From: a virus | DNA: 28,603 nt | Strand: one strand, 5' to 3' | Virus record (IMG/VR): IMGVR_UViG_3300032607_000970 | Location: 1 to 28,603 of that record | Part shown: in pieces, positions 1,841 through 27,545 of the stretch | Layout of the letters: every line of letters starts with the position of its first letter | Position numbering within the stretch: the first letter of the stretch is position 1 | The notes under the pieces: model-generated | Told to the model about the DNA's origin: nothing | What the model saw: only the letters and a program-made list of their open reading frames with translations | The model's database searches: none | Position numbers and translations under genes: made by a program

Positions 1841-2241
1841 ACGGACCGGACGATTGCCCGAAGACCCGCGACATCGAGCGCGCCATCGACCGGGCCGACT
1901 GGCTGCGGGACGAACGGCGGGACCGTGAGATGGAAGAGCGCAAAGGCCAAGCGCGAGCAGGAGTGGAAAGAGCCGTGAGCGAACAGCTTGAGCTTTTCCC
2001 GACCGCTCCGGCGCCTGTCGATCTGCTGCCGTCATGGCGGGACCGTCTCACGGCGTGGCCGGCGAAGGTGGCACACTATCGCCACGCGCGCGGGACCAAT
2101 GGCTGGTCAATGAGCGTCGGTGGTTATGTCGCAGCACGGATCCTTTTCCGTGAAGGCGAGATGGATCGTCGCGAACTGAAGCGCTGGTGGTTGTTCAACC
2201 GTCGCGTGCGCCGCTGGGATCAGCTCGGTTTCACTCTCTAA
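1837..2241 (+). CDS. Hypothetical protein in the replication module
   Basis: The 134-residue product is not recognised. The N-terminal half is very rich in Arg, Asp and Glu (a predicted helix around DIERAIDRADWLRDERRDREM). The C-terminal half has several tryptophans and ends RRVRRWDQLGFTL. A Cys near the start is isolated, so there is no obvious zinc site. The ATG at 1837 overlaps the helicase stop by four bases, implying translational coupling. An upstream in-frame ATG at 1735 lies within the helicase gene and is rejected. Co-transcription with helicase and primase suggests a replication accessory role, but nothing in the sequence proves it. Confidence 0.6.
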   Translation: MNGPDDCPKTRDIERAIDRADWLRDERRDREMEERKGQARAGVERAVSEQLELFPTAPAPVDLLPSWRDRLTAWPAKVAHYRHARGTNGWSMSVGGYVAARILFREGEMDRRELKRWWLFNRRVRRWDQLGFTL

Positions 2242-2254
2242 TTCAATTTTGAAT
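2241..2254. repeat. Short inverted repeat before the primase gene
   Basis: ATTCAA-TT-TTGAAT has perfect 6-base arms with a 2-base spacer and is AT-rich in a GC-rich region. It begins on the last base of the preceding stop codon and ends 10 bases before the primase ATG. It could be a small operator or simply a hairpin that affects initiation; chance cannot be excluded for arms this short. Confidence 0.35.
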
Positions 2255-2264
2255 CACCCATGCT

Positions 2265-4931
2265 ATGCATTCTCTCCATTCTCCGAAACGACCCACAGGC
2301 CCTGAAATCGACTACTATCAAAACGCGGAGGGGTGGCGACCGACTGCGACCTGCACGCTGGCGGACCTGATCGACGGGATCCGTTCGGACGAATACGCCG
2401 AGCCGGTGGCCGAGGTGCGGCGATTGATCGCGGCCGGGGACAAGCCGGCGGCTGACATGCTCAAGCGGCAACTGCCGGCGGTGTCGCTGAGCGGTTGCAT
2501 CGAGGGCCGGCGCAAGGCGGCGGTGGCGGACGGGCGCTTTTCCCACTCGGGGCTGCTGCAGATCGACTTGGACGCGAAGGACAACATCGGGTGGAGCGTC
2601 GATGAGATGCGGGAGATTCTCCAGGCGGATCCGCGGATGGTGGCGGTGTTTGTGACGCCATCGGGCGAGGGGGTGAAAGGGGTGGCACGAGTGCCGGCGG
2701 ATGTGGAGACTCACAAGGCTGCGTTCCTGGCAGCCGAGGCCCATTTCCGGACGATGAATCTGGAGATCGATGGCTCGTGTAAGGATCCGGGGCGGCTTTG
2801 CTTCGTCTCGCACGATCCGAAGGCGTGGTTGCGGATGGATACCAGTGAGTGCTTCGAGCCGGTGGTGCTGGCGGTGCTGGATGCTGACGATGCTGACGAT
2901 GTTGACGATGTTGACGATGTTGACCAGGTTGACGACGACGAGCGGGAGGTGGTGCCGATGTCGTTCCGAGTGTCGGACGGCGGCGGGATCGTGATCCGGG
3001 GCGGGGCGCACCGTGAGCTGACGCTGGAGGTGGTGCGTGAGATGCTGGCTGTTATTCCTTACCCTGGTTATGACGGCTGGTTGAAAATCACGAACGCGGT
3101 GTGGGACGCTGTCGGTGAGGCCGGAACCTCCGCGCTGCAGGAGTGGGCGCCGGAAAAGAAGGAGGGTGACTACGAGCGGAAATTCAAGTGCCGGCTGACG
3201 GACGTGCACGCCGGATCGTTGGTGATGATTGCCAAGGAAAACGGGTGGGCGCCGACGATCACTTCCGCGGTGGCACCGCGGGCGCCGCGAACATTGAACA
3301 TCGAACGTCCAACATTGAACGTCGAAGGGAAGAAAGGGGGGAAGGATAAGGACGCGATTCCCGCGCACGTGTTTCCGGTGCCGGCGGGAGACATCGGGCA
3401 TGACCTGGCGGCCCGGCATATTTTTTCGATCATCGGGCCGACGAACCGCTTGTTCCTGCGTAGGACGGCGGTCTATGAGGTGGCGGCCGAGGAGGGCGAC
3501 GAGTTTTCCCTGGAGGCGGTGCCGGCGAAGCGGCTGGTGTCGGTGATGGAATCGTTCGGCTGCCGGGTGATGCGGCGGGAGATGCGGGAGGATGGCAATC
3601 CGCGGTGGCGCTCGACGGTGTTTCCGAAAGACGCGGCGGACGTGGCGCTGTCGTCGGACGGGGCGCGGGAGTTTCTGCCGAAGATCCGGCAGTTGGTGTC
3701 CGCTCCGGTGCTGGTGAGCGACGGCGGCGACGGGACGCAGGTGATCGGGCGCGGCTACCACCCGCACGCCGGGGGGACTTACGTGACGTCTGGAGAGATG
3801 CCGCCGCGGGTGCCGCTCGATGAGGCGAAGGCGATGATTCTGGAAATGCTGGCGGACTTCGATTTCCCCGATGGCGGGGACGCGTCGAGGGCGATTGCGT
3901 CGTTCATCTCGCCGGCGATGAAGATTGGCGGGTGGATCGAGGACGATTTCCCGTTGGACATCGCGGAGGCGGACCAATCGCAGTCGGGCAAGACTTACCG
4001 GCAGAAGATGATTTGTGCGATCTACCGGGAGCATCCAAGCGCGATCACCCAACAGGTGGGCGGCGTGGGGAGTCTCGACGAGCGGGTGAGCACGGCGCTC
4101 ATCAAGGGGCGGCCGTTCATCAGCTTTGATAACTTTCGCGGGCGGATGGACTCGCAGATTCTGGAGACGGCGATTCGTGGGCTGGGCAAAGTGTCAGCAC
4201 GCGCGCTGCGCATCGAGACCGACATCGATTCGACGCCGTTCCTGTGGCAGCTATCGACGAACGGCGCGGAGTTGACGCGTGACCTGGCGAACCGGTCGAT
4301 CATTACGAGGATCCGCAAGCGGGCGCCGGAGCATGTGTTCCAGACATTTTCCGAGGGCGACATTCTCGCTCACGTGAAGTGCAACCAGCCGCGGTTCCTC
4401 GGGGCGATTCACGCCATCGTGCGTGAGTGGGTGGCACAAGGGCGGCGGATGACGATGGAGGCGCGGCACGATTTCCGGACGTGGTGCCGCATCATGGATT
4501 GGATCGTGCAGAACATTTTTGAATTCCCACCACTGCTCGACGGGCACCGGGAGGAACAGATGCGGACGGCTAACCCGAAGCTGCAGTGGCTGCGGGACGT
4601 GGTGCACGCGGTGCTGAGCGACGGTTACCAGGGGGCTGGGCTGACGGCTTCTGACATGGCCGAGGTGGCCGAGGAACACGACCTGCCACTGCCCGGCCGG
4701 CGGGACTCGACCGAGCTGCTCGAGCTGCGCGTGGGCAAGCTGCTGGGGCGGCTCTTCAAGGAGGCCGGCGGCAGTGAGATCATCGTGGATGGGCGGCGGG
4801 TGACGCGGCAGGTGGAGAGCGAATACGAGCCGATTTCACGGCATCATCGCGAGAAGAAAACTTATGTGATCGAGATGGAAAACTCAAACGAACAGTGTTC
4901 AACCACCGAGGATGAAGCCGAGCTGTTTTGA
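2265..4931 (+). CDS. Primase/ATPase fusion (BT4734-like N-terminal domain, PriCT_2, P-loop C-terminal domain)
   Basis: The 888-residue protein starts with a BT4734/VirE_N-like domain (about residues 20-190). It shows LLQIDLDAKD, TPSGEGVKGVARVP and a KDPGRLCFVSHDP stretch, the pattern of this archaeo-eukaryotic-primase-related family. A PriCT_2-like domain follows (about 255-330: AVIPYPGYDGWLKITNAVWDA). The C-terminal half carries a Walker A-like DQSQSGKT near residue 570, a Walker B-like PFISFDNF, and an arginine-rich NRSIITRIRKR that could hold an arginine finger. It probably synthesises primers and may load on or unwind DNA. Two linkers are odd: an Asp-rich 9-bp tandem repeat (from residue 206) and a TLNIERPTLNVE insertion at about residues 343-354. 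The ATG at 2265 has no Shine-Dalgarno; another ATG at 2260 is out of frame. The DNA substrate is not deducible. Confidence 0.82.
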   Translation: MHSLHSPKRPTGPEIDYYQNAEGWRPTATCTLADLIDGIRSDEYAEPVAEVRRLIAAGDKPAADMLKRQLPAVSLSGCIEGRRKAAVADGRFSHSGLLQIDLDAKDNIGWSVDEMREILQADPRMVAVFVTPSGEGVKGVARVPADVETHKAAFLAAEAHFRTMNLEIDGSCKDPGRLCFVSHDPKAWLRMDTSECFEPVVLAVLDADDADDVDDVDDVDQVDDDEREVVPMSFRVSDGGGIVIRGGAHRELTLEVVREMLAVIPYPGYDGWLKITNAVWDAVGEAGTSALQEWAPEKKEGDYERKFKCRLTDVHAGSLVMIAKENGWAPTITSAVAPRAPRTLNIERPTLNVEGKKGGKDKDAIPAHVFPVPAGDIGHDLAARHIFSIIGPTNRLFLRRTAVYEVAAEEGDEFSLEAVPAKRLVSVMESFGCRVMRREMREDGNPRWRSTVFPKDAADVALSSDGAREFLPKIRQLVSAPVLVSDGGDGTQVIGRGYHPHAGGTYVTSGEMPPRVPLDEAKAMILEMLADFDFPDGGDASRAIASFISPAMKIGGWIEDDFPLDIAEADQSQSGKTYRQKMICAIYREHPSAITQQVGGVGSLDERVSTALIKGRPFISFDNFRGRMDSQILETAIRGLGKVSARALRIETDIDSTPFLWQLSTNGAELTRDLANRSIITRIRKRAPEHVFQTFSEGDILAHVKCNQPRFLGAIHAIVREWVAQGRRMTMEARHDFRTWCRIMDWIVQNIFEFPPLLDGHREEQMRTANPKLQWLRDVVHAVLSDGYQGAGLTASDMAEVAEEHDLPLPGRRDSTELLELRVGKLLGRLFKEAGGSEIIVDGRRVTRQVESEYEPISRHHREKKTYVIEMENSNEQCSTTEDEAELF
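2880..2933 (+). repeat. In-frame 9-bp tandem repeat in the primase linker
   Basis: Six 9-base units occur in a row: GATGCTGAC twice, GATGTTGAC three times, and a variant CAGGTTGAC. They are exactly in phase with the codons and encode DAD, DAD, DVD, DVD, DVD, QVD between the BT4734-like and PriCT_2-like domains. Copy-number changes would only lengthen or shorten an acidic linker, never shift the frame. Confidence 0.85.
3290..3326. repeat. LNIERPTLNVE-type dispersed repeat inside the primase gene
   Basis: Two near-identical tandem units (AACATTGAACATCGAA and AACATTGAACGTCGAA, 15 of 16 bases the same, 21-base period) are read in frame as TLNIERPTLNVE. On the other strand they read as FNVGRSMFNVRG-like peptides. 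From memory, repeats giving such peptides are scattered through many Verrucomicrobiota and related genomes. The unit lies in a linker between the PriCT_2-like and P-loop domains, where an insertion would be tolerated. That it is an inserted host-type repeat is an inference. Confidence 0.55.
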
Positions 4932-12499: not shown

Positions 12500-12985
12500 A
12501 TGGCCATTCTTTATACTAACCTTGCTGCCCAACAGCTTCCCGTCGAAACGGCTGCCACCTGGAGCCGCGCCGATGGCAAGAAAGTCACCGGCGACATCAC
12601 TTACCTCGAGGGGATCTACACGGTTGCCGCGGGGACTGCCACCGCCGACATCATCCGGATCGCCAAGCTGCCGGCGAACGCCATCGTGATCCCGCACTTG
12701 TGCAAGATCACCTGCGGCGCTCCAGGTGCCGCGTTCACGGTCTCAAAGGTCGGCGACTTGTCGGTCGATGGCATCACCACGCCGGACGACGACGACCGCT
12801 ACAGCGGTTCGGTTGCCATCACGGCAGGCGGCACCTTCGACTACCTGCACGCCGCTCGTCCCGCCGGTCTGGCTGGCTACACCACCACGAAACCGATGTG
12901 GCTGATTGCCACGCTCGGCACGGTCACGACTCCCACCGCGGGGGCCGTGATCCGCTTCGTGGTCGCCTACGCCGTCCAGAGCTAA
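12500..12985 (+). CDS. Putative head decoration or minor head protein
   Basis: The 161-residue product is rich in Ala, Thr, Gly and Val and looks all-beta (GDITYLEGIYTVAAGTATADIIRIAKLPANAIVIPH, later TPTAGAVIRFVVAYAVQS). Proteins of this look often lie directly after the major capsid gene in podoviruses and are found on the head surface. The function is inferred from position and composition, with no specific motif. AGGA occurs 10 bases before the ATG, one of the rare Shine-Dalgarno-like sites here. It shares the capsid transcription unit and is followed by a strong terminator. Confidence 0.65.
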   Translation: MAILYTNLAAQQLPVETAATWSRADGKKVTGDITYLEGIYTVAAGTATADIIRIAKLPANAIVIPHLCKITCGAPGAAFTVSKVGDLSVDGITTPDDDDRYSGSVAITAGGTFDYLHAARPAGLAGYTTTKPMWLIATLGTVTTPTAGAVIRFVVAYAVQS

Positions 12986-13017
12986 ACCATCTGACAGCTG
13001 CGTGCTGTCGCACCCGA

Positions 13018-13052
13018 GGGGGGAAGGGTCTGTGTCCCCTTCCTCCCTTTTT
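13018..13052 (+). terminator. Strong Rho-independent terminator after the capsid unit
   Basis: Arms 13018-13028 and 13037-13047 pair over 11 bases with a single G-U pair, the loop is 8 bases, and TTTTT follows at 13048-13052. It begins 32 bases after the decoration gene and ends 12 bases before the tail tubular protein A start, so it may be partly read through to express the tail genes. Confidence 0.85.
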
Positions 13053-13064
13053 CATTTTCCAGTC

Positions 13065-13721
13065 ATGCCCTCTGAAGTTGAAATCTGCAATCTGGCGCTC
13101 CAATACCTGGGCGAGCCGGCGATCATCTCCCTGACGGATACGGGGGACAACGCGGCGCGCACCTGCGCGGTGAATTTCTCCCAGGCTCGCGACGAGGCGC
13201 TGTCTGCCGCCCAGTGGTCCTGCGCGAAACGTCAGGCTGCCCTGCCGCGGCTGACCGAGGCGCCGCTTTACAAGTGGGCTGCAGCGTATCAACTTCCGGT
13301 AGATTTCCTGCGACTGTGCGAAATCGACGGATCGAATGCCTGGACGCCGGCGGAGTATTTCGACCGCCAAGGCAGCACGCTGCTGATGGGCCGCGGGGTG
13401 GATGCGGAGACTTCCGCGGTGGTGTGCATCGAATACATCGCACGCATCGAGGACACCACCCAGTTCGACCCGCTGCTGGTCGAGTGCCTGGCGCTGATTC
13501 TGGGCGCAAAGATGGCCCGCACGCTGACCGGCTCGGACGCAAAAGGCCCCCAGCTGCGCGAGGAATACGAACGCGTGGCGCTGCCCAAGGCGCGGACCTT
13601 GAATGCCCAACAGATTTACAGCGGCAAGAATCACCCCATCCGGCAGATGCTCGGGGGCTCGTTCCTGCAAAAGGCCCGCCGCTCCGGGGATGCGTCTCAC
13701 GTCGGCCTCGAAAACTGGTAA
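13065..13721 (+). CDS. Tail tubular protein A (T7 gp11-like head-tail adaptor)
   Basis: The 218-residue product has the family hallmarks: an N-terminal EICNLALQYLGEPAIISLTDTGDNAARTC stretch, an FSQARDEALSAAQWSCAKRQAAL helix block, then YKWAAAYQLPVDFLRLCEIDG. In T7, gp11 forms a dodecameric ring joining the portal to the tail nozzle. The ATG at 13065 is chosen because it directly precedes the conserved N-terminus; an in-frame start at 13002 would cross the terminator. No Shine-Dalgarno is present. The next gene starts after 3 bases. Confidence 0.9.
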   Translation: MPSEVEICNLALQYLGEPAIISLTDTGDNAARTCAVNFSQARDEALSAAQWSCAKRQAALPRLTEAPLYKWAAAYQLPVDFLRLCEIDGSNAWTPAEYFDRQGSTLLMGRGVDAETSAVVCIEYIARIEDTTQFDPLLVECLALILGAKMARTLTGSDAKGPQLREEYERVALPKARTLNAQQIYSGKNHPIRQMLGGSFLQKARRSGDASHVGLENW

Positions 13722-13724
13722 CCC

Positions 13725-16700
13725 ATGGCAACGCTCTCGCTCATCCCATCGTTCAACAGTGGCGAGCTCTCGCCGCTGATCCACCTGCGCAGCGATCTGG
13801 AGAAATACCGGTCGGGCTGCCGCACGCTGCAGAACATGACGGTCACTCCCTACGGCGGGGTGCGCCGGCGCGCGGGGCTGGCGTATTTTGTGACGGCACC
13901 GGGCAAGTGCCGGCTGTTCAAATTTCAGGCATCGGTGGAGCAGGCGTATGTGATGGAGTTCAGCGCCGGGCTGGTTCGGTTTTTCCTGAATGAAACCACC
14001 CCAGTCTTTACGGTGGCGAGCCCCTACACCGCAGACGATCTGGACGGGATCCAAATGGCACAGGTGAACAACGTGGCGTATTTCACGCACCCCTTGCGCA
14101 CTCCCTACAAGATGCGTCGTGTCTATCACACGCTGTGGGAGTTCGCACCGGTGGAGTTCGATTACCCGGCGATGCTTGAAGAAAACCTCAACAAGTCGCT
14201 GACGATCACGACCAGCGCGGCGGGAGCGGCCGGAGCGTCCATCAATCTGGATTCGTCGGCGGCGTTGTTTGCGGCCGGCCACGTGGGCGCCCATTTTCAA
14301 ATCTCGCACGAGCGCACGGCGGATCAATTCGAAGTGACGATGACGGCGACGTCGGGCAACAACGGGCGCTTCACCGCGGGGCTGATCGTGCAGGGGGCGT
14401 GGTCGTTTGCCACCAGTGGCACCTGGAGCGGCACCTTTGTGATCCAGCGCTCGACCAACAACGGGGGATCGTGGCAGACGATCCGGCAATTCTCGGCGTC
14501 TGCCAATGACAACTACTCGGCGGGCGGCACCGAGCCAGGGCAAGTGCTGCTGCGGATCGGGTGGACCCATGTCGCGACCGGCAGCTCAAACCCAAGGGCG
14601 AGCTTGGAGGCAAGCGGGGCATTTATCCGCGGCTTGGTCCGAATCACTTCGGTGATGACAAGCACGCACGCCGAGGTGGTGGTCGTGAATCGGGTTCGTT
14701 CCGGTGCGACCAGCTACTGGCGGGAAGGGGCGTGGAGCGGCGTCAATGGCTACCCGCGCACCGTGGCGGCGCACGAGCAGCGGATCATCTACGGCGGCAA
14801 TGCGCTGCGCCCATCGACCTTGTGGGGCAGCGCGACGGACGACTACGAGCGATTCGAACCGGGCGTGGATGACACGGATTCGTGGACGCACGCGCTCGCC
14901 AGCGACCAGCAAAACTCGATTCAATGGCTCATCTCTCAGAAATCACTGCTCATCGGCACCTCGGGGGATGAGTGGGTGATGTCATCGGGTGGCGATGAAA
15001 CGACGATCACGCCGTCCAACGTGCGGGCCCGGCGCCAATCGGGCAACGGCTCGGACTTCCTCAAAGCCCGCGTGATCAATGATGCGGTGCTGTTCGTGCA
15101 GCGCGGCGGAAAAAAGCTGCGGGACATGACCTTCAGCTTCGAGGCAGACGGCTACACGACCAGCGACCTGACCTTGCTGGCCGAGCACATCGCGGGCGAG
15201 GGGATCATCGATACCGCTTACCAGGCGCAACCGATTTCAACGCTGTGGTGCGTGACGAGGGGTGGGACATTGATTGGCCTGACCTACGACCGGGCGCAGC
15301 AACTGGTCGGCTGGCACCGCCACGTGACCGGCGACGCGACGGACGGCTTCGAGTCCGTCACCGTGCGGACGACTGCCGGCGAAGCGGACCAGGTGTGGGT
15401 GAGCGTGCGGCGCCGCATCGATGGCACCGACCGCCGGCACATCGAGCGGATTTGCTCGGATGGGTTCTTTTTGGAAACTCCGTGGAGCCTGCTCTATCCA
15501 TCGACCGATGGTCTGGAGCTGTGGGACTATCGTTACCTGTCGAGCACCGCGGGCACCGCTTCGCTCGGGCCGGTGGGAGCTCCCTACCCTTTTTTCGATC
15601 CTGACTGGTTCTATTACTGCGTGGTTTCGCATACCATGGATGAGACCTACGTGGGAACTTTCGACACCCACGCGGGGTATTCTTTTGCGGCGCCGGATCT
15701 TGGGCAAACTTGGGTTTGGGTGGGTCCATGGATCAATTCGTTGAGCTCTGGCGGGTACGCGGTGGGTGACACGGTGCACCATGCGGACGTGATTTACCGA
15801 GTGATTTTGCACCACGGTGCATCAGGCGGCGGTCCTGGTATCAAAGAACCCGGTGTGGCAGTGGACTGGGCGACCTATTGGGCGATCGTCGATGACGTGC
15901 CGGTTTCTCTGCCCAACGTGGTGGTGCAAGACGAATACCTTGAAAACGACGAAGTGCAGTCTGGCGGCTACAAATACACCGCCACCGACGACCACGCGCA
16001 AACCGAGGACAACGAACCCGGCGTCGGGATCTCGTGGGGCTCTTACTGGGTCCGCGATCAAGGCACCTACTCCATCGGCGATCTGGTATCGGCGGACCGC
16101 GGCAACTATATCTGCACCGCCGACCACACACCGAGTGCGGCCACGCGTCCCGCAACCGGTGACGACTGGGGCGACGTCTGGGCGCTGCAACCCACCGACA
16201 ACCTGCTGTTCCACGTGGATGCCGGCGTGACCGCGCTGGCCTTCACCGGCGACGAAATGACCGGGCTCGATCATCTCGAAGGTGAGACCGTGCAGGTGCT
16301 CGCCAATGGCGCGGTGCTCTCGCCACGGGTGGTGAGCGGCGGGGCAATCCAGTTCGACCAGGAGGGCGATCCTACCGAGTTCGTTTCGGTGACCGCAGGG
16401 CTCGCTTATGAATCGCTGCTGGAACCGATGGCGCTGGAGGTCGGCATGCAAAACGGCACGTCGGTTTCCCGTGAGAAGCGGATTTACGAGCTGGTGATCT
16501 ACTTCGACAAGACCAACGGCTGCCAAGTGGCCAGCACGACGGCAGGACCGTTCGAGACGCTGCGGTTCCGGTTTGGCGATGTTTATGCCGACCAGGCGGT
16601 GCCGCTGTTTTCCGGGGCCTACGTGCACAAGCTGGCCGCGCGCCACGATCTGGAAGCGTCCTTCGTCATCAAACAGGACCAACCGCTGCCGCTGACGGTG

Positions 16701-17679: not shown

Positions 17680-19782
17680 ATGGCGAACATTCCACTACCC
17701 GGTAAAAATCTGATTCAAGGCTACTCGTCCGGCGGCGAGGGCAGCGTGGCCGCGGCGGCTGCACCGTGGGCGGCGACGGCGAATCTCGGTCGGGAGATTC
17801 AGGACACGGGCGACCAATACACCGCCCTGCTCGCCCAGGCGCAGAAGGCGCAGACCCGCACCAAGTCCAACGAAATGGAGTTGGAGCTGCTCAAGATCCA
17901 CGCCGACTACGAAAACGAGATGCTGAAAAGCCCGAACCCGTCCCAGTGGGTGGCCGGGTATGAGAAGAAAATGGCGGAGGCAAAGAAACGCTTTGTGCCA
18001 GACAACATGACGCCGGATGAGCAAGAGGCGATCGGTGGGGCGTTCAACAATTTCGCCACGCGCTCGTCAATCAGCGTCGGCCGCACGGCCGCGGTGGCGG
18101 TGTTCCAGAACGACAAGCTGGCGCTGGGTAACCTGCTCACCCAGGCGGAGGCCAGCGACGACGAGGAGCTGCGGCAGCGCGGGCTCTCGCAAACCCGCGA
18201 GATGATGCCGGCGGCCGAGGCGGACAAGGTGGCCGCGGAGTCTGACCGCCGGGTGGCGAGCACCCGCGTGACGCGTGAAATCGAGGCGGATCCCCTGGCG
18301 TGGAAGGACAAGCTCAAGGATCCGGAGGTGATCAAGGAATTTCCAGGGCTGGCGGTGGGCGATCTGCCTCGGCTGCAAGACATGGCGCGCGCCGCGGCGC
18401 GTCAATCGGTCGGCGATGCGCTCGACCAGTTCAACGACAGCTTGGCGACAGGCGCCGTGAAGTCTCCCGAGGAAATCGACCGGAGCTTCAAGGGCCGCGT
18501 CTCGCCGAGCGTGCTCGAAGACATGAAGGGCACGCTGGCCAAACGCTGGACCGCCGAGGAGACCGCCTTGCGCAAGTCGCCGGCGTATCAGGCGGAAATG
18601 GTCGGGAAAATTTCCTCGTCGATGGCAGGCCTGGCTGACGCCGAGGATTTTGAAAAACGCTATGCCACGAGCTCGTTCATGATCGACTCGCTGGAAGACT
18701 CGCCGATGAAGCGCCAGCTCACCGAGCAACTGCGCGCCACCAAGAGCGGCCGCGAGTGGGAGGTGAAGACGCACGCCGACGCCGCGATGAAGGCGCTCGA
18801 CGATGCCGCCAAGGCCGGCCGCTTCGGCGTGGTGCCGAGCACCAAGAAGATGCTGGTGGCGGATGCGCTGCAGGCGGGTTTCCTGAATGCTCCTGAAAAG
18901 CTGAAAAGCCTGGGCTACAGCGACGACCAGATTGCCAAGATCACCAAGGAGGATTCCAACGAAAAGCGGCAGCTGGCATTCCGCCAAGAGTGGACGAAGC
19001 GCGGCAAGGCCGACCCGAACGTCTCGCAAACCGTCTGGCAAACCGCGATGGCGATCCGCACCGGTGCCAACGAAGTGATGAATCCCGAGGCCGAGGACGC
19101 CGCAATCTCCGCGCAACTGGTGGCCGACCGCCGCCACGGCGAGGCGAAGATGAAGCTCGGCGAATTCCTGCGGCTCAACCCGGAAGCCTCGCCGGATCAA
19201 ATCGACACCAAGATTCTTGAAATCGGCGGTGAGCAAACGCACCGCGAGCTCAAGAGCGGGATTTACGACATGAAAAAGTCAACATCGGGCGGCCCGAACG
19301 GTGCCAGCGACTCGACGGCCTCCGTGCCGGTCGGCAACACTCTGACCGAGATTGTGAAAAACTTCGAAGCCGGCGGAGCACCGGGCGGCTTCCATCGCTC
19401 CGCATATTGGGACTATGGGCAATGGTCGATCGGTTACGGCACCAAGGCCAAGGAGGGGGAAACGATCACCCAGGCGCAAGCCGACAAACGTCTCGCCGAC
19501 GAGCTCGGGCAACACCGCGCGCGGGTGACCGCGGAGGCCGGCAAGCTCGGGCTCAAGTTCAACGACGCGCAACTCGACGCGCTGACGTCCTTCGATTTCA
19601 ACACCGGCAAGATCGAAACACTGCTGGCCAATGGCACCCGCTCTCCCCAGCAAATCGCCGACACGATGCTGCTCTATCGCAACGCTGACGGGCAACGCCT
19701 GCGCGGCTTGGAATCCCGCCGCAAGGCGGAGCGACATCTGTTCCTTCACGGTCACGCCAGCACCGACACTCAAAACTCATGA
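17680..19782 (+). CDS. Internal virion (ejection) protein with C-terminal lysozyme domain
   Basis: The first 540 or so of 700 residues are mostly alpha-helical and charged, like T7 gp15-type core proteins (AAAPWAATANLGREIQDTGDQYTALLAQ; many Glu/Lys/Ala helices). The C-terminal 150 residues form a phage lysozyme (GH24-like) domain: a likely catalytic Glu at NFEAGG (E563), Asp at AYWDYGQW (D578), and SIGYGT in place of the usual TIGYG (S583 at the Thr site), followed by FNDAQLDALTSFDFNTG and RRKAERHLFLHG. It would be ejected and locally cut peptidoglycan during genome entry. No stand-alone endolysin is seen in the window. The stop overlaps the giant gene start as ATGA. Confidence 0.85.
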   Translation: MANIPLPGKNLIQGYSSGGEGSVAAAAAPWAATANLGREIQDTGDQYTALLAQAQKAQTRTKSNEMELELLKIHADYENEMLKSPNPSQWVAGYEKKMAEAKKRFVPDNMTPDEQEAIGGAFNNFATRSSISVGRTAAVAVFQNDKLALGNLLTQAEASDDEELRQRGLSQTREMMPAAEADKVAAESDRRVASTRVTREIEADPLAWKDKLKDPEVIKEFPGLAVGDLPRLQDMARAAARQSVGDALDQFNDSLATGAVKSPEEIDRSFKGRVSPSVLEDMKGTLAKRWTAEETALRKSPAYQAEMVGKISSSMAGLADAEDFEKRYATSSFMIDSLEDSPMKRQLTEQLRATKSGREWEVKTHADAAMKALDDAAKAGRFGVVPSTKKMLVADALQAGFLNAPEKLKSLGYSDDQIAKITKEDSNEKRQLAFRQEWTKRGKADPNVSQTVWQTAMAIRTGANEVMNPEAEDAAISAQLVADRRHGEAKMKLGEFLRLNPEASPDQIDTKILEIGGEQTHRELKSGIYDMKKSTSGGPNGASDSTASVPVGNTLTEIVKNFEAGGAPGGFHRSAYWDYGQWSIGYGTKAKEGETITQAQADKRLADELGQHRARVTAEAGKLGLKFNDAQLDALTSFDFNTGKIETLLANGTRSPQQIADTMLLYRNADGQRLRGLESRRKAERHLFLHGHASTDTQNS

Positions 19783-22700
19783 TCGACTTCACTCAAGACC
19801 TCCCGCCTGCGCCTACCGTGGACGATTTGACCACGGCCAACCAGCTTCCCGAGGCGAGCCGCCCGCCGTCGCTGGTGCCGACCTTCGGGGAAAACCCGTG
19901 GGAGGTGGATCAACGCGAAAAGGATGCGGCTGACGCGGAGTTCCGCCAGACGGCACAAGCGAAACTCGACCAAGTGGCACTGGATCCGGATTCCTACTTT
20001 GCGGGCAAAGACCTCGGCTTCACCCGCGATCCGAAGAAATCGCAGGCCATGGCGCTGAATTCCGCCTTCATGGAATTTGCCAGCGGGGACATGCCAATCC
20101 CGCTGGGAGAATCCGACATCAACCGGCGCCTGATTCGTCAGGATTTGGCAATCCGGCTCTTCGAAGGCCGCGGCGCGGACACGGAAGAAGCCTTCCACGG
20201 CGAAATCGTCAAAGCGGCCCAGGGGCGCAAGGACACGGACGACCTGTTCCAGAAACTTACCGAGACGTCCCAGCTGGCGGTGACCGCCGGCAGCGTGGGC
20301 GAAGCGGCGACCACCTTCAAAGCGTGGCGCGACGAGGCGAAGGCGAAGCCGGGCTACAAGCCCGAGAACGACGCCGACTACCTGGAGGCGTGGCACCAGA
20401 CCCAGCGCGAGGCGCGCGAACGCATCGAGCCATTCCGCGAGGAACTGGCCAGCGTCTGGCAGGCGATGAAAGGGGGCGGCGCCGGGACCGCTTCCGAGTT
20501 GATCAAGAGCGCGGGGGCGGACTTGCTGCTGGCCGGCGGCAGCGACGGCGAAGACACGGTGGACGAGTTTGCCAAGAAAGACGCCGGCGCCGTGGCGTTC
20601 GAGGTTTACCAAAAACTCAGCGAGGCCGAGCGCGAGGAATTCATGGCGGGGCTCGACACGCTGGTGAAGACCTTCCCCAAAGAAGAACGTCCCGCGGTGC
20701 TGGCTAACCTCGCCAAATCCGGCGGCCGGATGGTCGATGACCTGGCACGCGGCGCGGCCTCACGGTTCTCGGTGAAAGGGCTGGAGCAGTATCTCAACCA
20801 GGGCATCGCCGACAGCGCGGGCCCGCTCGGGGCGTCGGACGCGGACAAGGCGGCAGCTGCAGCCAATGCGACGAACATCCAGGCGGACCGGCTGGCACAG
20901 AAGAACTTTGCCGATGGGATTCGCAAGATCGAGCGCGGGGAATACGCGCCGGTGCGGCATTTCTCGAAGCCGAGCAAGGACGTGTTTTCAAAGCGCACGC
21001 TCGAAGACGGGTTCTACGGTGTGCCCGGCGTGTTCGCCTCGGTGGCCACCGCGATGCTTCCCGGCGTGGGGCCCGGTGCGATGTATCTGGCGATGGAGGA
21101 TTTTGCTTATGGCGACCTCCGAGACAACGCGATGCGCGCCGGCATGAGCGACGAAGCGGCCAGTTTGTTTGCCGACGAGTGGAAGTCCGCTGCCGCCATC
21201 CCACAGACGGCGCTGGAAGTGCTCCAGATTTACGTGCCACTTGGCAAGCTGCCGGCAGTCAACAAGGTGCTCGGTGCGATGGGTGACAGGATCACCAACC
21301 GCTTGCTGCGCGGAGTGGTCAAGGCGGGGTCCATCGGGGCGGCCGAAACCGCGGTGGAGGAATTGCAGTATCTCACGCCGTATGCGGTGCAGGAAATCGC
21401 GCACTCGTTTGCTGCTGACACCGGCACGCCGCCCGCGGTGTGGCATAATGGCCAGAACGGTGCCTTCGATGGATTCTGGACGCGGCAGGCGACCACCTTC
21501 ATCTCGATGCTTCCGATGGCGGCCTTCGGGGCGGTGGGTGGCTTGAATGCGGAAGCGCGGGCTAAGGCGTTCAGCACGGCGACGCCGCTGCAACGGCGGG
21601 CGTTTGGCATCACCGATGCCCACAGTGCCGCCATCGATGCCGCCGCCGCTCAGGGGCCGTCCTCGCTGAATGCTGCCGTCGAGGCCGCGATGGCCGAGCG
21701 GGTGCCGGAAAGCGAGCAAGCCAAGGCCGCGGTGGCCGAGCTCGAAGCAGAGATTGCCGAGCAGCAAGCCGCCGTTGCCGAAGCGCAGGCTGCCGGCGTG
21801 ATGCCGCTCTTCGTCCGCGCGCCGGGCAGCAAGATGATTTCCGTGCTCGACGGCACGACCCGCGAGGAAATCGGGCAGGCCGCGACCCATGCGGACGCGC
21901 TGCGGATCGCGGCCGACCACACCAACGCCATCGATCTGACCAATGCCGACCAGGTGGCGTTCCTCTCGACGCTGCTGCAGGCCGCGCAAATCACTACCAT
22001 CAGCGACGGGGAGACGCGGCAGACCGGGTTTGATGTGGGGGCGGGGCGCTTAGTGACGGCCAGTGAGGAAGCGGCGCTGTCGCCCGCGGACGAGGCGCGG
22101 GTGCTCGCCCAGTCGAAAGCCAAGGAAGCGATCGGCGGCAAGCCTGGCTTCGTGGAAATCGTGCTCGGCAAAAGCGTCACGCGCACCAAGCAGAAGGTCC
22201 GCGAGACAGTCAACCGGATCAACGCCGGCGGCTCGGTGCTGACGATCTTTCACGAAGAGTCACACGGCTTTTTCCGCGAAGCTTTGACCAACGGACGCCT
22301 GACGAAAGAGAGCACCATTGAAACCATCCGCGGCCTTCAATCGTCCTTCGTCGGCAAGACGACCAAGGACGGCGAGGCGATCAGCTTCCTGCCCGCCGAG
22401 GGCGAGGTGACCGACGAGCAGCTCGACGAAGCGGTTTCCGAACTGATGGAAACGCTCATCTTGAAGAATCGCAAAACCAACGGCATGCCGCGGGGCATGG
22501 TGAGCAACAACCTTTCCGCCATGGCGCGGATGAACGGCGGGGCAAAGTCGTTCAAGGCGTTCGTCGATACCGTGCGGGATTTCTTCGGTGTCACGTTCTC
22601 ACGGGTTTACGAACTCAAGAAGGCAATCAAGGACGGCAAGGTGACGGAGGCGGATCTGGACGCATTCACCAACAAGCTCTTCGGCCTCGATGCGCAGGAC

Positions 22701-25700
22701 GAGCACGACGCTGCCGCGGTGACTGCGCGGGATGAGATTCTGGGCGAGGGGGATCCGTTCAGCATTCGGCCACAATCTCTCAAAATGCAGCCCCCCAAGG
22801 GGATCACTGCGAACACCACCGAATCCTTGCCGACGTGGACGATCCCCCAGGAAAAGGGTGTGAGTCTGCCCAAAGTGTTGTCCACGGCGAAGGCTCGGGC
22901 AGTGTTCTACAAGCGTCTGGACGGTGCGCTGAAATGGCTCAACGAGAATCCGGCGAGAATCACCACCGCTTCCGGCTGGGTGAAGTTCCTGCAAAAAGCC
23001 GGCGTATGGGGCGAGGTGCCGATGCCACCGATGGGGCTGGCGGAAATCATCAACAATCCGGCGGCCTATGTGGCCAAGCTCAACGGCGGCTATCACGAGG
23101 AATCGACCCTGCCAGGAACCCAGGAATCCGCGCGCGCGGGCTTGGACGGCACCACGGAGATGCGCGGGCTCATTGGCGCAGGAAAAGCGCCGGCGCCGTT
23201 CGTGGTGGCCCTTCATCACATGTGGGGCATTCTCTCGCGGATGTTGCCACCTCTCCACCAGGAGGGCATGTGGCTGCGTTTGATTTCCCACCGCCCGGTG
23301 CTCGATGCAATCCAAGCGTCGATTGACGGGACGTTCTCCGTGAGCATCAGTGAGTGGCAAACACTGGTGCAAGGGGCACGTGACACAACGGCGGACGGCG
23401 CCGGCCAAATCGGCAACGCCGCCACGGCGAATGCCAATTCATTTTTCATGATGCTCGATCGACTGAACGGTCGCTGGCAAGACATGGCGGATGTCTACAT
23501 GGCCCCGAACAGCCGGGAAATGGGCCGCCGGTTCTGGGACATCGATGCCGGCGCACTCGGCATCAAAAACAAGGTGCAACGATTCATCGGCCTCACCTTC
23601 GGCATTCCTGGGGTGATCATGGATCGCTGGAAATTCGTGGAGTTCTGGCTCCCTCTCGCCATGGAGGGCAAGGGCAATGAAACTTCTGCAGATTATTTCA
23701 CCTATGGAAACAATACTCCATCGGATCCGTCAGGAATTTACGGGGTCTATGGCAAAGTCGATAGCAGCAACGAGGCTCTGAGTCTGGCAATGTATGAAGC
23801 CTTCGAGACGGTGCTGGAATCCGCCATTGCCAAATCCCCTGAGCTGCAAGCACATCTGGGGGCCCACGCGAATCCCGGCGGGATGCACTGGCACGGTTGG
23901 AATGCCATCAAAAACGAAGCGGTCGGGCACTCGTCGCTGGATCTGACCAAGGAGTTGATCCAATCCTTCGGAGTTGATGTGACGGCAGAAACCGTCCACA
24001 ATGCCATCCGCAATGGAACCTACTACACCGAAGGAGCTGAGAGCCAACAGTCCAACGTCAAGTTCTTCCTCGACCGCGGAACAGTCCGGGTTGAAAGGAC
24101 CAGCGTGGCCGGCGGACTTCAGCCAGGACGTGCCGGAATACTCGGACGAGGAACTGGCGCGGGAGATGAAACTGGTGGAGGCGGAGAGCGAGGCCCGCAG
24201 GGCGAGCAAGGGCAAGTAGAGGAGTTGGGTTCATTCTCCCTCGGCCCGGCCCGCATGGCCGAAGCGCTGCAGGACAATGCGGTCAACCGCGTCTATGCCG
24301 ACCCGCGCGCCCGCAGTGTGGTCTTCAACGTGATGATGAAGAAACTCGGCGACCTCAAACGCGACCGGGACGAGATCGGGATTTCCTTCGGCAAGGGCTA
24401 CAAGCGCAAAGCCATCGAGGATCCGCGCAAGACGGCGAGCATTAACAAGGAATCCGCATTTCGCGAGGCAGCCCGCCGGGCGGAACTTGAGGAAATCGCT
24501 GCCGCCAAGTATGGCGAAATCCTCAACGACGACGATCTGGTCAAGATTAAGGCGCAGCCGGTGCACGAGATGCTTTCGGTGAAGCGCGCAGACGGCAAGG
24601 TGGACACGCTCCGCGGCCGGCTCATGTCACCTACCGCTGCGGCCGCCCGTGGTGAAACGTTCTTCGATGCCGGCAAGCACGGTGACTACGACGGCGCGTC
24701 GAACATCGCCCGCACCAACTTCGGCGGCACGCTCCTGCCCGACCAGGCGGCGCAGGAACTCTTCGACGCCGGGCTCATCCAGTCACCCACGCCTGACGCG
24801 ATGTGGCAGGCGATGGAGCGCGAGCAAAACTCGGTGGCCAAGTTCAAGGAATACCTCAAGGCTGCCCAGGAGGATCTGAAAGCCGCCCGCGTCCAGGCGA
24901 AGGCTGAGGCCGCCAAGTGGAAAGCGGAACGGCTCAAGGAAGAGAAGGCCAACTACTCGCCCAAAGCCCGCCTGCTGCGCGCCCTGGCGCTGCTCGATGG
25001 CATCATTTCCTCCCTCCCGATCAGCGAGCGTGGCCGCATCGGCGGCTACACCCAGCTGGCCAAGCTCGAAACCGACGAGGTGCGCCTGCGTTTCCTCAAC
25101 GAGCGGATCGATAAGGTGGACGAGGTGCTAGAAAAATACCTGGTCAAGGAATACGGCCGCATGCTCGACAAGCTGCTGGAGCGTTCGATCCCCAAGAAGG
25201 GCGCCGCCGGGGAAAAACCGAAAGGCAGCGCCGGCGCGGAGATCCACGAGATTTTCGCCGTGCTCCGCCAAGCCCGCGAGGGGACGCAGGACGAGGTGGA
25301 CGCCCATGTGGACGGCTTGCTGTCCGTCGTCGCCAGTGGCAACCAGACCGCCGCGGAAGTGGCCCGCATGACCATGCAGGCCAACCTCGTCGGGCTGGTA
25401 GGGAATTGGAAAGAAGCCGACAGCGTGCGCCGTGCCGCCGCCGTGGTGAACGCCACCAACGCTTTCGAGTCCGGCTACAGTCGCTTCCGCCTGGCGCTGC
25501 TTCTCAAGCAGGAAGATCAGACCATCCGCCGCCGTTCGCTGGCCGCATCCACCAAGGCCGCGGGCACCGCCGCCGCTCGCGATCTGAAAATGATCGCCGA
25601 CAACGGGCTCAAAGGCACGTGGAAGGACAACTTCCTCAGTCTGATTTCCTTTGAACAGCTCAACGAATACCTGTTTGGCCGCGACTCGCAAGAAGCCCGC

Positions 25701-27545
25701 GCCATCGTCGATGGCGAGCGTCTGGCCTCCAACCAGAAAGAGGACGTCATCCAAGCCAAGATGGACGCACTCGACGATCTCTTCGCCGACCTTGGTGGCT
25801 CGCAACTCGCCGGCGAGAAACTGCGGTGGGACTTGTCGCAGAAAAACCTGACGGTCGGTGGTCGCACGCTCTCCGCCTTCGAAGCGATCACCGCAACCCT
25901 GATGTGGCGGCAAGAGGACGGCCGCCGCCATATGGAAGGCCACAAGGACGAGAACGGCAACTTCGCCGGGCCGTGGCACTACGACCAGGGATTCGTCGAT
26001 GCCTGCGAAGCGGCGCTGTCCGACGATGCCAAGGCGGTGCGCTTACACATTGCAGACCAATACACCGGCGAATACGCCACCCTCAACCCGGTCTACAAGG
26101 CGCTCAACGGCATCAACCTTCCATCCAATCCGAACTATTCGCCGCTCACCGTCAAGCCGGTGCAAGCCGCCGGCGGCCAGGGCATCGATCCGGTCACCGG
26201 CTCCACCATGTCCGGTGCCTCGATGACTCCCGGCAGCCTGCGCACCCGCGGCCAAGCAATCGCCGAGCCGGATTTCCGCGACGCCCTGCAAACCTACATC
26301 GCCCACACCAAGCAGATTCAACACTGGATTGCCTACGCGCCCTTCATGGACGACGTCGGCGCCATCCTCCGCAACCGCGAGCTCGGCAACTCCATCGAGG
26401 AAAAGGGCGGTGCCCAAGCACTCAGCGTGCTGCGCAGTTGGCTGGATCTCTTCATGGCCGGCGGCGTGCGGGATGCCTCCGCCCACCTCGCCCTCAACGG
26501 CATGATGAACCGCATGATGGGCCGCACCGCATCCGCGGTGCTGGTCGGCCGCATGTCGGTGCTCGCCATCCAGACCACCCAACTCGGTGCCGCCCTCGCC
26601 GAAATGCCGACCGGCTCGTTTGCCGTCCGCTTCGGCAAGCTGTTCACCGGCCAGCTGGGCTGGGGCGCCGCCTTCCGCTCGGAATACATCCAGCGCCGCC
26701 TGGCACAAATGCCGGCCTCCGTGCAGCAGGCGATGGCCGGCCTCAAAGCCAGCCGTCCCAACCGGGTAAAACACTGGGTGCAAAAAGCCGGGCTGCTGAT
26801 TTCCGGCACCGATGCGCTGATGACCGCCGGTACCTTTGCCATGGTCCACGATTACCAACTCGGACAAGCCAAAGCCCTCGGCCTCACCGGTCCCGAGGCC
26901 GACGCCTACGCCCTGGCCGCCGCCGAGCGCGCGGTGGATCGCATCGCCCAACCGACCCGCCCCGGCACCCGCTCCCTGTTCGAGAACACGGCCACTAATC
27001 CCGCCATGCGCGTGCTGTGGGCGTTTGCCAGTGAGTCCCGCCAGAAACTAGCGCTGTCGCTGTGGCGCGTCGCAGCCAAGGACCGCACGCTCGGTGAGAA
27101 AACGCGCGCCCTCGCCGTCACCTGGGTGGTCGGCGGCATGCTTGCCACTGTCATGCGTGCCGCCATGCGCGACATCAAAGACGACGGCGATGACGACGAA
27201 ATTTTCGACGAACGCAACTGGGGCGCGAAACGCTTGGCGCTGTCCTCGCTCACCGGTCCCTTCGGCGGCATCCCGTTCATCGGCGACATGCTCGAGGGCG
27301 GCGTCTACGCGCTGGCCGGCGAGCGATTGCCAGAGGGCAACCTGCTGTCGTCCATGTCGTCCGCCTTCAAGGCTGCCACCCGCGCCACCGACTGGGGCGA
27401 CCAACCGCCCAACCGCATCATGCGAGACGTCGAAACCATCCTCGGCGGCATGGCCTTCATGAACGACACGCTGTCCGCTGCCGCGTCACTCTCCCACCTC
27501 GCCCGCGACCTGTTCGGCGTCGCCGCCAACCTCGCCGACGACTAA
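19779..27545 (+). CDS. Giant polyvalent-type virion protein with HEESH metallopeptidase motif and HhH-GPD-like module
   Basis: This single 7767-base frame encodes 2588 residues in the place of T7 gp16, the largest ejection core protein. The N-terminal 640 residues are helical with hydrophobic stretches near 415-437 and 571-594. A Glu/Ala coiled coil (about 640-675) leads to a zincin-like HEESH (residues 825-829) with downstream acidic ELMETL, followed by a phage-typical AIKDGKVTEADLDAFTNKLFGLD. Residues about 994-1485 form a distinct module with LGIKNKVQRFIGLTFG and IMDRWKF, resembling HhH-GPD DNA glycosylases. A Gly-rich linker (about 1445-1480) looks like out-of-frame coding. Residues 1486-2588 are helical, with a late membrane-like segment near 2446. 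It is probably packaged and ejected with DNA; each enzymatic call is inferred from motifs. Confidence 0.85.
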   Translation: MIDFTQDLPPAPTVDDLTTANQLPEASRPPSLVPTFGENPWEVDQREKDAADAEFRQTAQAKLDQVALDPDSYFAGKDLGFTRDPKKSQAMALNSAFMEFASGDMPIPLGESDINRRLIRQDLAIRLFEGRGADTEEAFHGEIVKAAQGRKDTDDLFQKLTETSQLAVTAGSVGEAATTFKAWRDEAKAKPGYKPENDADYLEAWHQTQREARERIEPFREELASVWQAMKGGGAGTASELIKSAGADLLLAGGSDGEDTVDEFAKKDAGAVAFEVYQKLSEAEREEFMAGLDTLVKTFPKEERPAVLANLAKSGGRMVDDLARGAASRFSVKGLEQYLNQGIADSAGPLGASDADKAAAAANATNIQADRLAQKNFADGIRKIERGEYAPVRHFSKPSKDVFSKRTLEDGFYGVPGVFASVATAMLPGVGPGAMYLAMEDFAYGDLRDNAMRAGMSDEAASLFADEWKSAAAIPQTALEVLQIYVPLGKLPAVNKVLGAMGDRITNRLLRGVVKAGSIGAAETAVEELQYLTPYAVQEIAHSFAADTGTPPAVWHNGQNGAFDGFWTRQATTFISMLPMAAFGAVGGLNAEARAKAFSTATPLQRRAFGITDAHSAAIDAAAAQGPSSLNAAVEAAMAERVPESEQAKAAVAELEAEIAEQQAAVAEAQAAGVMPLFVRAPGSKMISVLDGTTREEIGQAATHADALRIAADHTNAIDLTNADQVAFLSTLLQAAQITTISDGETRQTGFDVGAGRLVTASEEAALSPADEARVLAQSKAKEAIGGKPGFVEIVLGKSVTRTKQKVRETVNRINAGGSVLTIFHEESHGFFREALTNGRLTKESTIETIRGLQSSFVGKTTKDGEAISFLPAEGEVTDEQLDEAVSELMETLILKNRKTNGMPRGMVSNNLSAMARMNGGAKSFKAFVDTVRDFFGVTFSRVYELKKAIKDGKVTEADLDAFTNKLFGLDAQDEHDAAAVTARDEILGEGDPFSIRPQSLKMQPPKGITANTTESLPTWTIPQEKGVSLPKVLSTAKARAVFYKRLDGALKWLNENPARITTASGWVKFLQKAGVWGEVPMPPMGLAEIINNPAAYVAKLNGGYHEESTLPGTQESARAGLDGTTEMRGLIGAGKAPAPFVVALHHMWGILSRMLPPLHQEGMWLRLISHRPVLDAIQASIDGTFSVSISEWQTLVQGARDTTADGAGQIGNAATANANSFFMMLDRLNGRWQDMADVYMAPNSREMGRRFWDIDAGALGIKNKVQRFIGLTFGIPGVIMDRWKFVEFWLPLAMEGKGNETSADYFTYGNNTPSDPSGIYGVYGKVDSSNEALSLAMYEAFETVLESAIAKSPELQAHLGAHANPGGMHWHGWNAIKNEAVGHSSLDLTKELIQSFGVDVTAETVHNAIRNGTYYTEGAESQQSNVKFFLDRGTVRVERTSVAGGLQPGRAGILGRGTGAGDETGGGGERGPQGEQGQVEELGSFSLGPARMAEALQDNAVNRVYADPRARSVVFNVMMKKLGDLKRDRDEIGISFGKGYKRKAIEDPRKTASINKESAFREAARRAELEEIAAAKYGEILNDDDLVKIKAQPVHEMLSVKRADGKVDTLRGRLMSPTAAAARGETFFDAGKHGDYDGASNIARTNFGGTLLPDQAAQELFDAGLIQSPTPDAMWQAMEREQNSVAKFKEYLKAAQEDLKAARVQAKAEAAKWKAERLKEEKANYSPKARLLRALALLDGIISSLPISERGRIGGYTQLAKLETDEVRLRFLNERIDKVDEVLEKYLVKEYGRMLDKLLERSIPKKGAAGEKPKGSAGAEIHEIFAVLRQAREGTQDEVDAHVDGLLSVVASGNQTAAEVARMTMQANLVGLVGNWKEADSVRRAAAVVNATNAFESGYSRFRLALLLKQEDQTIRRRSLAASTKAAGTAAARDLKMIADNGLKGTWKDNFLSLISFEQLNEYLFGRDSQEARAIVDGERLASNQKEDVIQAKMDALDDLFADLGGSQLAGEKLRWDLSQKNLTVGGRTLSAFEAITATLMWRQEDGRRHMEGHKDENGNFAGPWHYDQGFVDACEAALSDDAKAVRLHIADQYTGEYATLNPVYKALNGINLPSNPNYSPLTVKPVQAAGGQGIDPVTGSTMSGASMTPGSLRTRGQAIAEPDFRDALQTYIAHTKQIQHWIAYAPFMDDVGAILRNRELGNSIEEKGGAQALSVLRSWLDLFMAGGVRDASAHLALNGMMNRMMGRTASAVLVGRMSVLAIQTTQLGAALAEMPTGSFAVRFGKLFTGQLGWGAAFRSEYIQRRLAQMPASVQQAMAGLKASRPNRVKHWVQKAGLLISGTDALMTAGTFAMVHDYQLGQAKALGLTGPEADAYALAAAERAVDRIAQPTRPGTRSLFENTATNPAMRVLWAFASESRQKLALSLWRVAAKDRTLGEKTRALAVTWVVGGMLATVMRAAMRDIKDDGDDDEIFDERNWGAKRLALSSLTGPFGGIPFIGDMLEGGVYALAGERLPEGNLLSSMSSAFKAATRATDWGDQPPNRIMRDVETILGGMAFMNDTLSAAASLSHLARDLFGVAANLADD
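22758..24219 (+). other. Apparent inserted module in the giant gene (HhH-GPD-like domain)
   Basis: The segment begins at FSIRP (residue 994) and ends just before a similar FSLGP (residue 1486). Base composition inside (for example 23680-23790) is less GC-rich than the flanks. Its core resembles a family I recall from other giant phage proteins (WGILSR, NANSFFMMLDRL, GGMHWHGWNAIKNEAVGHSSLDL). The GIKNK-x-(17)-D arrangement, K1265 and D1282, matches the catalytic Lys/Asp spacing of EndoIII/OGG-type glycosylases to within one or two residues. Confidence 0.5.
24076..24219 (+). pseudogene. Out-of-frame C-terminal tail of the inserted module
   Basis: In the frame one base ahead of the giant gene, these bases read as a plausible protein end: GLKGPAWPADFSQDVPEYS, then a Glu/Ala/Lys-rich helix, closing at TAG 24217-24219. 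The giant-gene frame over the same bases is low-complexity Gly/Arg/Gln. This suggests the module was once a separate or terminal reading frame whose stop was bypassed by a shift around 24075-24105. A programmed frameshift or overprinted coding is the alternative; no classical slippery site is obvious. Confidence 0.45.

Follow-up and report, generated by a model that had tools for sequence, protein, structure and literature searches.

What does a segment that resembles a DNA glycosylase do inside a very large phage protein? The question is raised by the window analysed here, i.e. the whole stretch of 28,603 nucleotides of the virus record IMGVR_UViG_3300032607_000970. The first-pass annotation had placed a DNA-glycosylase-like (HhH-GPD) module at positions 22758 to 24219, within a giant protein supposed to be ejected by the phage. 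Our main reading, to which we give a probability of about 60%, is that the segment represents a divergent base-excision enzyme of the HhH-GPD type and is part of a polyvalent protein that enters the host together with the phage genome.

The giant gene occupies positions 19779 to 27545 of the forward strand, as do all features below unless stated otherwise. It has an ATG start in the list of open reading frames and encodes 2588 amino acids. The ATG overlaps with the stop codon of the gene before it (17680 to 19782), which encodes a probable internal virion protein of 700 amino acids with a C-terminal phage lysozyme domain (PF00959, E-value 7.9e-19). Further upstream are the genes of a Pif1-like helicase, a primase-like protein, a terminase, a T7-type portal (PF12236), a capsid protein and a tail protein. 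The order tail protein, small genes, lysozyme/internal protein and giant is found, in part or completely, in seven of the homologous loci. Two long open frames on the reverse strand, 2238 to 4052 (604 aa) and 12924 to 14570 (548 aa), lie opposite the primase-like and tail genes and are probably shadow frames of GC-rich DNA.

Neither the complete 2588-residue protein nor the originally proposed span has a match in Pfam (E-values up to 1) or in PHROGs (E-values up to 0.1), and tblastn searches of cultured phages and plasmids gave nothing useful. The only domains that we recognise in the giant protein of the window are the module and a zinc-protease-like HEESH motif. The latter is located just upstream of the module at residues 825-829 (22251 to 22265) and is followed about 55 residues later by ELMETL (22422 to 22457), a combination that resembles a zincin-like metallopeptidase motif and has no Pfam match.

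Homologues were collected by searches of IMG/VR and GTDB genomes, which provided 18 contigs at first and many more later. The homologous giants contain ART-PolyVal, PBECR5, RadC, LPD22 and C5 methylase domains. The giant protein is thus of the polyvalent type, i.e. multidomain, with effector domains in its homologues and encoded beside virion genes. It is also strongly depleted in cysteine. By residue count there is one cysteine in the 2588 residues and none in the 700 residues of the lysozyme protein; elsewhere in the window, most proteins contain roughly 0.6-2.8% cysteine. The homologous giants, with lengths of 1000-4400 residues, have between zero and five cysteines, most of them zero to two. 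This depletion is consistent with a passage through the cell envelope. Judged from the gene position, the co-resident ADP-ribosyltransferase and PBECR5 nuclease domains and the near absence of cysteine, the protein is probably delivered into the host with the genome. Cysteine depletion might also be a signature of ejected proteins in general.

Some domain combinations among the homologues deserve mention. An ADP-ribosyltransferase domain (ART-PolyVal) is located N-terminal of the module in six of them, some with scores below the curated cut-off. In two of these proteins it is within about 100 residues of the module and in the others farther away, and a functional pairing is possible. In three homologues the region N-terminal of the module weakly resembles Phage_L5_gp82 (PF25735), with scores that do not reach the curated cut-off. 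In the record IMGVR_UViG_3300017746_000020 the module is part of an open frame of about 6512 amino acids. A C5 DNA methylase domain is present in the same frame, and HATPase, phosphoribosyltransferase and methyltransferase domains are matched there more weakly. This frame is among the largest phage open reading frames known to us.

The module itself is about 400 amino acids long, and the distinct phage-type sequences that carry it (less than 95% identical) number at least 34. Local comparison shows that eleven of these proteins have only about 400 residues in common with the giant of the window, and in one further homologue the C-terminal part is weakly similar as well, besides the module. The module forms the very C-terminus of nine homologues. 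It is thus mobile and has been inserted into otherwise unrelated giant proteins. Since the module is the only part that these proteins share, its boundaries can be defined without any prediction. The module proposed originally is present, only slightly smaller than annotated: the shared sequence covers approximately residues 1029-1440, and we aligned and modelled residues 1029-1448 (22863 to 24122).

After removal of near-duplicates at 95% identity 35 representatives remained, and 34 of them have letters at the key positions. In all 34, N1264, K1265, V1266, F1269, G1275, D1282, R1283 and W1284 are invariant, and so are H1370, W1371, W1374, N1375, K1378, N1379, E1380, G1383, H1384, S1385 and S1386. 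The module lacks cysteine, as do 34 of the 35 representatives. Ten sequences form a second subfamily, in which the proline of the FGxP turn is mostly replaced by lysine and the arginine of NKVQR by serine or glycine; the residues of the catalytic site are invariant here as well. Sequence searches did not assign the module to any family. The Pfam profiles PF00730 and PF22175 match none of 19 module members at E-values up to 1, a PHROGs search of the same 19 members gave nothing useful, and phmmer and hmmsearch found nothing among the sequences of the PDB.

An AlphaFold2 model based on the alignment of 19 sequences has a mean pLDDT of 88.8 and a pTM of 0.87. Apart from a beta stretch at the C-terminus, the model is helical. 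Foldseek alone does not identify the fold: the best E-value against the PDB is 0.37, which is not significant, EndoIII appears at E-values of 0.57-1.0, and BFVD gave no clear match. The superfamily emerged only with VIA-align, a DALI-like method. Here HhH-GPD glycosylases, together with their relative Qng1, take all of the first 36 places, and the first unrelated chain below them has a Z-score of 3.8. The best match is TmOgg (3n0u), with a Z-score of 11.5 and 205 of 208 residues aligned at 3.8 A. MjOgg (11.2), OGG1 (9.4), EndoIII (9.0), CacOGG (8.6), ROS1 (8.2), Qng1 (7.6), MagIII (7.2) and AGOG (5.1) follow, all with the full model. The alignment to whole Ogg2 chains covers model residues 60 to 356, and we assign the core glycosylase fold to the corresponding residues 1088-1384 (23040 to 23930).

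A second prediction, of residues 1084-1274 only, has a pLDDT of 79.3. Its top 15 rows are all HhH-GPD proteins with Z-scores above 4.6, including CacOGG, EndoIII, Ogg2, MagIII, NTHL1, TAG and MBD4, and nothing unrelated scores above 3.5. Helical proteins may reach middling Z-scores by chance, but the exclusivity of the superfamily, the full coverage of the target and the gap below argue against this for the full model. A chance resemblance is rejected on the basis of the invariance of the key residues, the shuffled profiles described below and the agreement of the two models. By its predicted fold, the module thus belongs to the HhH-GPD superfamily, with a two-domain all-helical architecture, as the first-pass annotation had expected of a structure prediction. 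We would class it as a new and divergent family within HhH-GPD, carried by polyvalent proteins.

The catalytic motif, LGIKNKVQRFIGLTFGIPGVIMDRWKF, is located in the 2588-residue frame, with K1265 at 23571 to 23573 and D1282 at 23622 to 23624. The proposed distance of 17 residues between the two is correct, and both are conserved in the homologues. The same spacing is found in an EndoIII of solved structure, PDB 9nzc (GRKSANVVLAYSDIPAIPVD). In the model, a helix (model residues 217-226), a hairpin (227-235) and a second helix (236-245) form a candidate helix-hairpin-helix; the hairpin reads ALGIKN where LPGVGR is expected. The second helix, a Gly-rich loop and the aspartate together form GIKNKVQRFIGLTFGIPGVIMDRW, residues 1261-1284 (23559 to 23630), defined by sequence, invariance and the EndoIII profile. 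The likeness of TFGIPGVIMD in this loop to AFGWPTIAVD of EndoIII holds for the FG, the spacing and the aspartate. It does not extend to the proline of this Gly/Pro-rich loop, which is replaced in 14 of the 34 sequences (20 Pro, 13 Lys, 1 His).

The position of K1265 was examined with the second model. This model ends at F1274, nine residues after K1265, and the register of the lysine helix can be read from the last residue pair of each alignment. There, F1274 pairs with residue 138 in 3n0u, 130 in BstNth (1orp), 231 in CacOGG (3f10) and 229 in NTHL1 (7rds). The catalytic lysine of 3n0u is K129 according to its own sequence, exactly nine before 138, and we take the catalytic lysines of the others to be K121 (1orp), K222 (3f10) and K220 (7rds). 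Because each pairing differs by exactly nine, K1265 falls on the catalytic lysine in four enzymes. The weak point of this register is the pLDDT of the lysine helix, about 50 in the second model compared with about 87-92 in the full model. K1265 is accordingly predicted to correspond to the lysine with which the second HhH helix begins in the bifunctional (lyase) HhH glycosylases.

For the aspartate, we used an EndoIII profile built from 18 open reading frames of Verrucomicrobiota genomes. In an unconstrained alignment FIGLTFGI-PGVIMD pairs with VLGNAFG..PG.PVD, which places D1282 on the catalytic Asp. Sub-profiles around the site place K1265 on the catalytic lysine of EndoIII via one gap. The full-length profile scores 28.8, and none of 200 column shuffles reaches this value (maximum 27.4). 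In the model D1282 directly precedes the helix 255-270 according to DSSP, as a catalytic Asp does. D1282 is predicted to be the catalytic aspartate after the loop, with its register taken from the profile only. The predicted fold, the invariance of K1265 and D1282 and the register of the lysine all support the earlier interpretation of the module as DNA-glycosylase-like. The structures 9o02 and 9o01 in the PDB are Ogg2 variants changed at exactly the catalytic Lys and Asp.

A putative base pocket can be located from the ends of the full-model alignments. The offsets at these ends are 27 for OGG1, 64 for CacOGG1 and 124 for AGOG. According to the literature, the flipped base is stacked by Phe319 in hOGG1, Phe282 in CacOGG1 and Trp222 in AGOG (PMC3397491), and all three lead to model residue 346, i.e. 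W1374. If there is no gap before the alignment end, W1374 is predicted at the position of the base-stacking aromatic residue and H1370 at that of Gln315 in hOGG1. Trp198 of Ogg2 falls one residue off W1374. We assign the predicted base-recognition helix and loop, on the basis of these offsets and of the invariance, to HWHGWNAIKNEAVGHSSL (23886 to 23939), which contains both residues. The invariant W1284, two residues after the aspartate (23628 to 23630), is at the position of His270 in hOGG1 and Trp243 in CacOGG1, whose roles are described in PMC3397491.

Taken together, the module is probably a lysine-dependent glycosylase/AP lyase, by analogy with the bifunctional enzymes for both the activity and the lyase step. 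It would bind DNA through the hairpin and flip a base into a pocket, which W1374 and H1370 would close. K1265 could then attack the sugar, assisted by D1282, and release of the base would produce an abasic site or, after beta-elimination, a nick. Several points weigh against this reading: Foldseek alone has no significant match, the sequence searches of Pfam and the PDB are negative, the hairpin differs from the classical LPGVG, and the lysine helix has a low pLDDT in the second model. As such an enzyme would arrive together with the genome and thus ahead of all phage gene expression, a role in conflict appears most likely, either damage at a particular base in the DNA of the host or of a competitor, or the removal of a base mark placed by the host's defence. 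The conflict domains in the neighbourhood speak for attack or counter-defence rather than for the repair of lesions in the phage's own DNA. A more specific version of this role is tentative, and we regard it as possible but less than even: the family would serve ejected polyvalent proteins as a mobile effector cartridge, a virion-delivered base-excision weapon. Within minutes of the start of infection it would excise one specific base from the DNA of the host or of a competitor, or else remove from the phage's own DNA a base adduct made by a defence system.

A serious rival, although in our view an unlikely one, is virion-borne repair, in which base excision would start the repair of oxidised or deaminated bases accumulated in free virions once the DNA enters the cell. 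It has to be taken seriously because the nearest folds are those of 8-oxoguanine enzymes, Ogg2 and OGG1. The pocket residues are also invariant across phages whose hosts, according to the genome bins, differ (Verrucomicrobia, Microthrix), as expected for one universal lesion. However, the partner domains in the homologues are conflict effectors (ART, PBECR5), and cutting the single incoming copy of the genome would be risky. In addition, the C-terminal lysine by which Ogg2 tells 8-oxoG from G cannot exist as such in the module, where the chain continues.

Rather improbable is a glycosidase like Qng1 (DUF2419), acting on a free modified nucleoside or nucleotide, or on a defence signal, and not on DNA. 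More of the model is aligned to Qng1 (225-233 residues, Z-scores 6.5-7.6), and polyvalent and other ejected phage proteins have been proposed to attack nucleotide signals (PMC7824862), which counts in its favour. Against it, the DNA glycosylases have higher Z-scores (11.5 for Ogg2), a lower rmsd (3.8 A versus 5.1 A) and near-complete coverage, and a hairpin segment between helices is kept at the HhH position. We infer DNA, not a nucleoside, as the substrate, in the same way as we infer the enzyme activity, the delivery, the target and the purpose.

More doubtful again is a non-catalytic use of the fold, for DNA binding or as a structural element. HhH-GPD domains do bind DNA and the activity of the module is a prediction, but K1265, D1282, W1284, H1370 and W1374, i.e. 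the catalytic and pocket positions, would hardly be expected to be invariant across 34 sequences in that case. Thymidylate synthase (PF00303), QueC and N6/N4 methylase genes gave no match in 21 related records, many of which are fragments, making the absence weak evidence, and C5-methylase matches occur in only five of the 21. As the first three are missing from these records, there is no sign that the module serves a hypermodification of the phage's own DNA. We reject as highly improbable a base-modifying transferase that decorates thymine without excision, like the phage aGPT-Pplases, which reportedly share the glycosylase fold (Iyer et al. 2013) and speak for this reading as the best-known phage reuse of it. 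The aGPT-Pplase1 and aGPT-Pplase2 of phage SN1 read GWGPFM and GFGPWI where the module has K1265, neither aligns with the module, the module has no Pfam match, and the 21 records contain no thymidylate synthase-type gene.

We return to the reading as an ejected base-excision enzyme for the comparison with known systems. Ogg2 is the best structural match (TmOgg 3n0u and MjOgg 3knt), with almost the whole Ogg2 chain covered, the position of the catalytic Lys coinciding and the stacking Trp in nearly the same place. The DRW of the module also resembles IIDRH or ILDKH after the Asp in Ogg2. However, the identity is about 10%, the Lys to Asp spacing is 17 in the module and 18 in Ogg2, and the module has an insertion of about 40 residues behind the helix that follows the Asp, as well as additional helices at its N-terminus and beta hairpins at its C-terminus. 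The link to Ogg2 is structural only, as a profile comparison of the module with a six-sequence Ogg2 alignment gave no match. In Ogg2, the carboxylate of the C-terminal lysine recognises 8-oxoG (PMC3397491). Membership in Ogg2 is rejected: the module has no such lysine, its chain runs past the aligned end at residue 1384 and its own C-terminus is variable.

For EndoIII/Nth, and for no other family, a sequence profile picks out the motif, with the FG-x-x-x-x-x-x-D spacing, and some Nth proteins, such as 9nzc, share the 17 residues from Lys to Asp. The structural Z-score is lower, and the module lacks both the LPGVG hairpin sequence and the Fe-S cysteines. An EndoIII with a four-Cys Fe-S cluster is excluded by the complete lack of cysteine; some genuine EndoIII relatives also have no Fe-S cluster. 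OGG1 and CacOGG1 have corresponding pocket positions, with W1374 at Phe319/Phe282, H1370 at Gln315/Gln278 and W1284 at His270/Trp243. They differ in the spacing (19 residues), and the OGG1 A-domain does not align.

The phage polyvalent proteins (Iyer et al. 2017, PMC5512222) resemble the giant protein in size, multidomain architecture and location near virion genes, and the homologues carry ART-PolyVal, PBECR and LPD domains. Unlike what we describe here, the main text of that survey mentions no glycosylase, helix-hairpin-helix or base excision, and the module has no Pfam entry. A DNA glycosylase, Brig1, was recently shown to be an anti-phage weapon in host defence (PMC11078745). The likeness is the use of a DNA glycosylase in phage-host conflict, whereas Brig1 is host-encoded, monofunctional and a member of the uracil-DNA glycosylase superfamily. 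If the tentative weapon reading is true, the module would be the particle-borne counterpart on the phage side, base excision would be used by both sides, and polyvalent proteins would gain a new catalytic activity.
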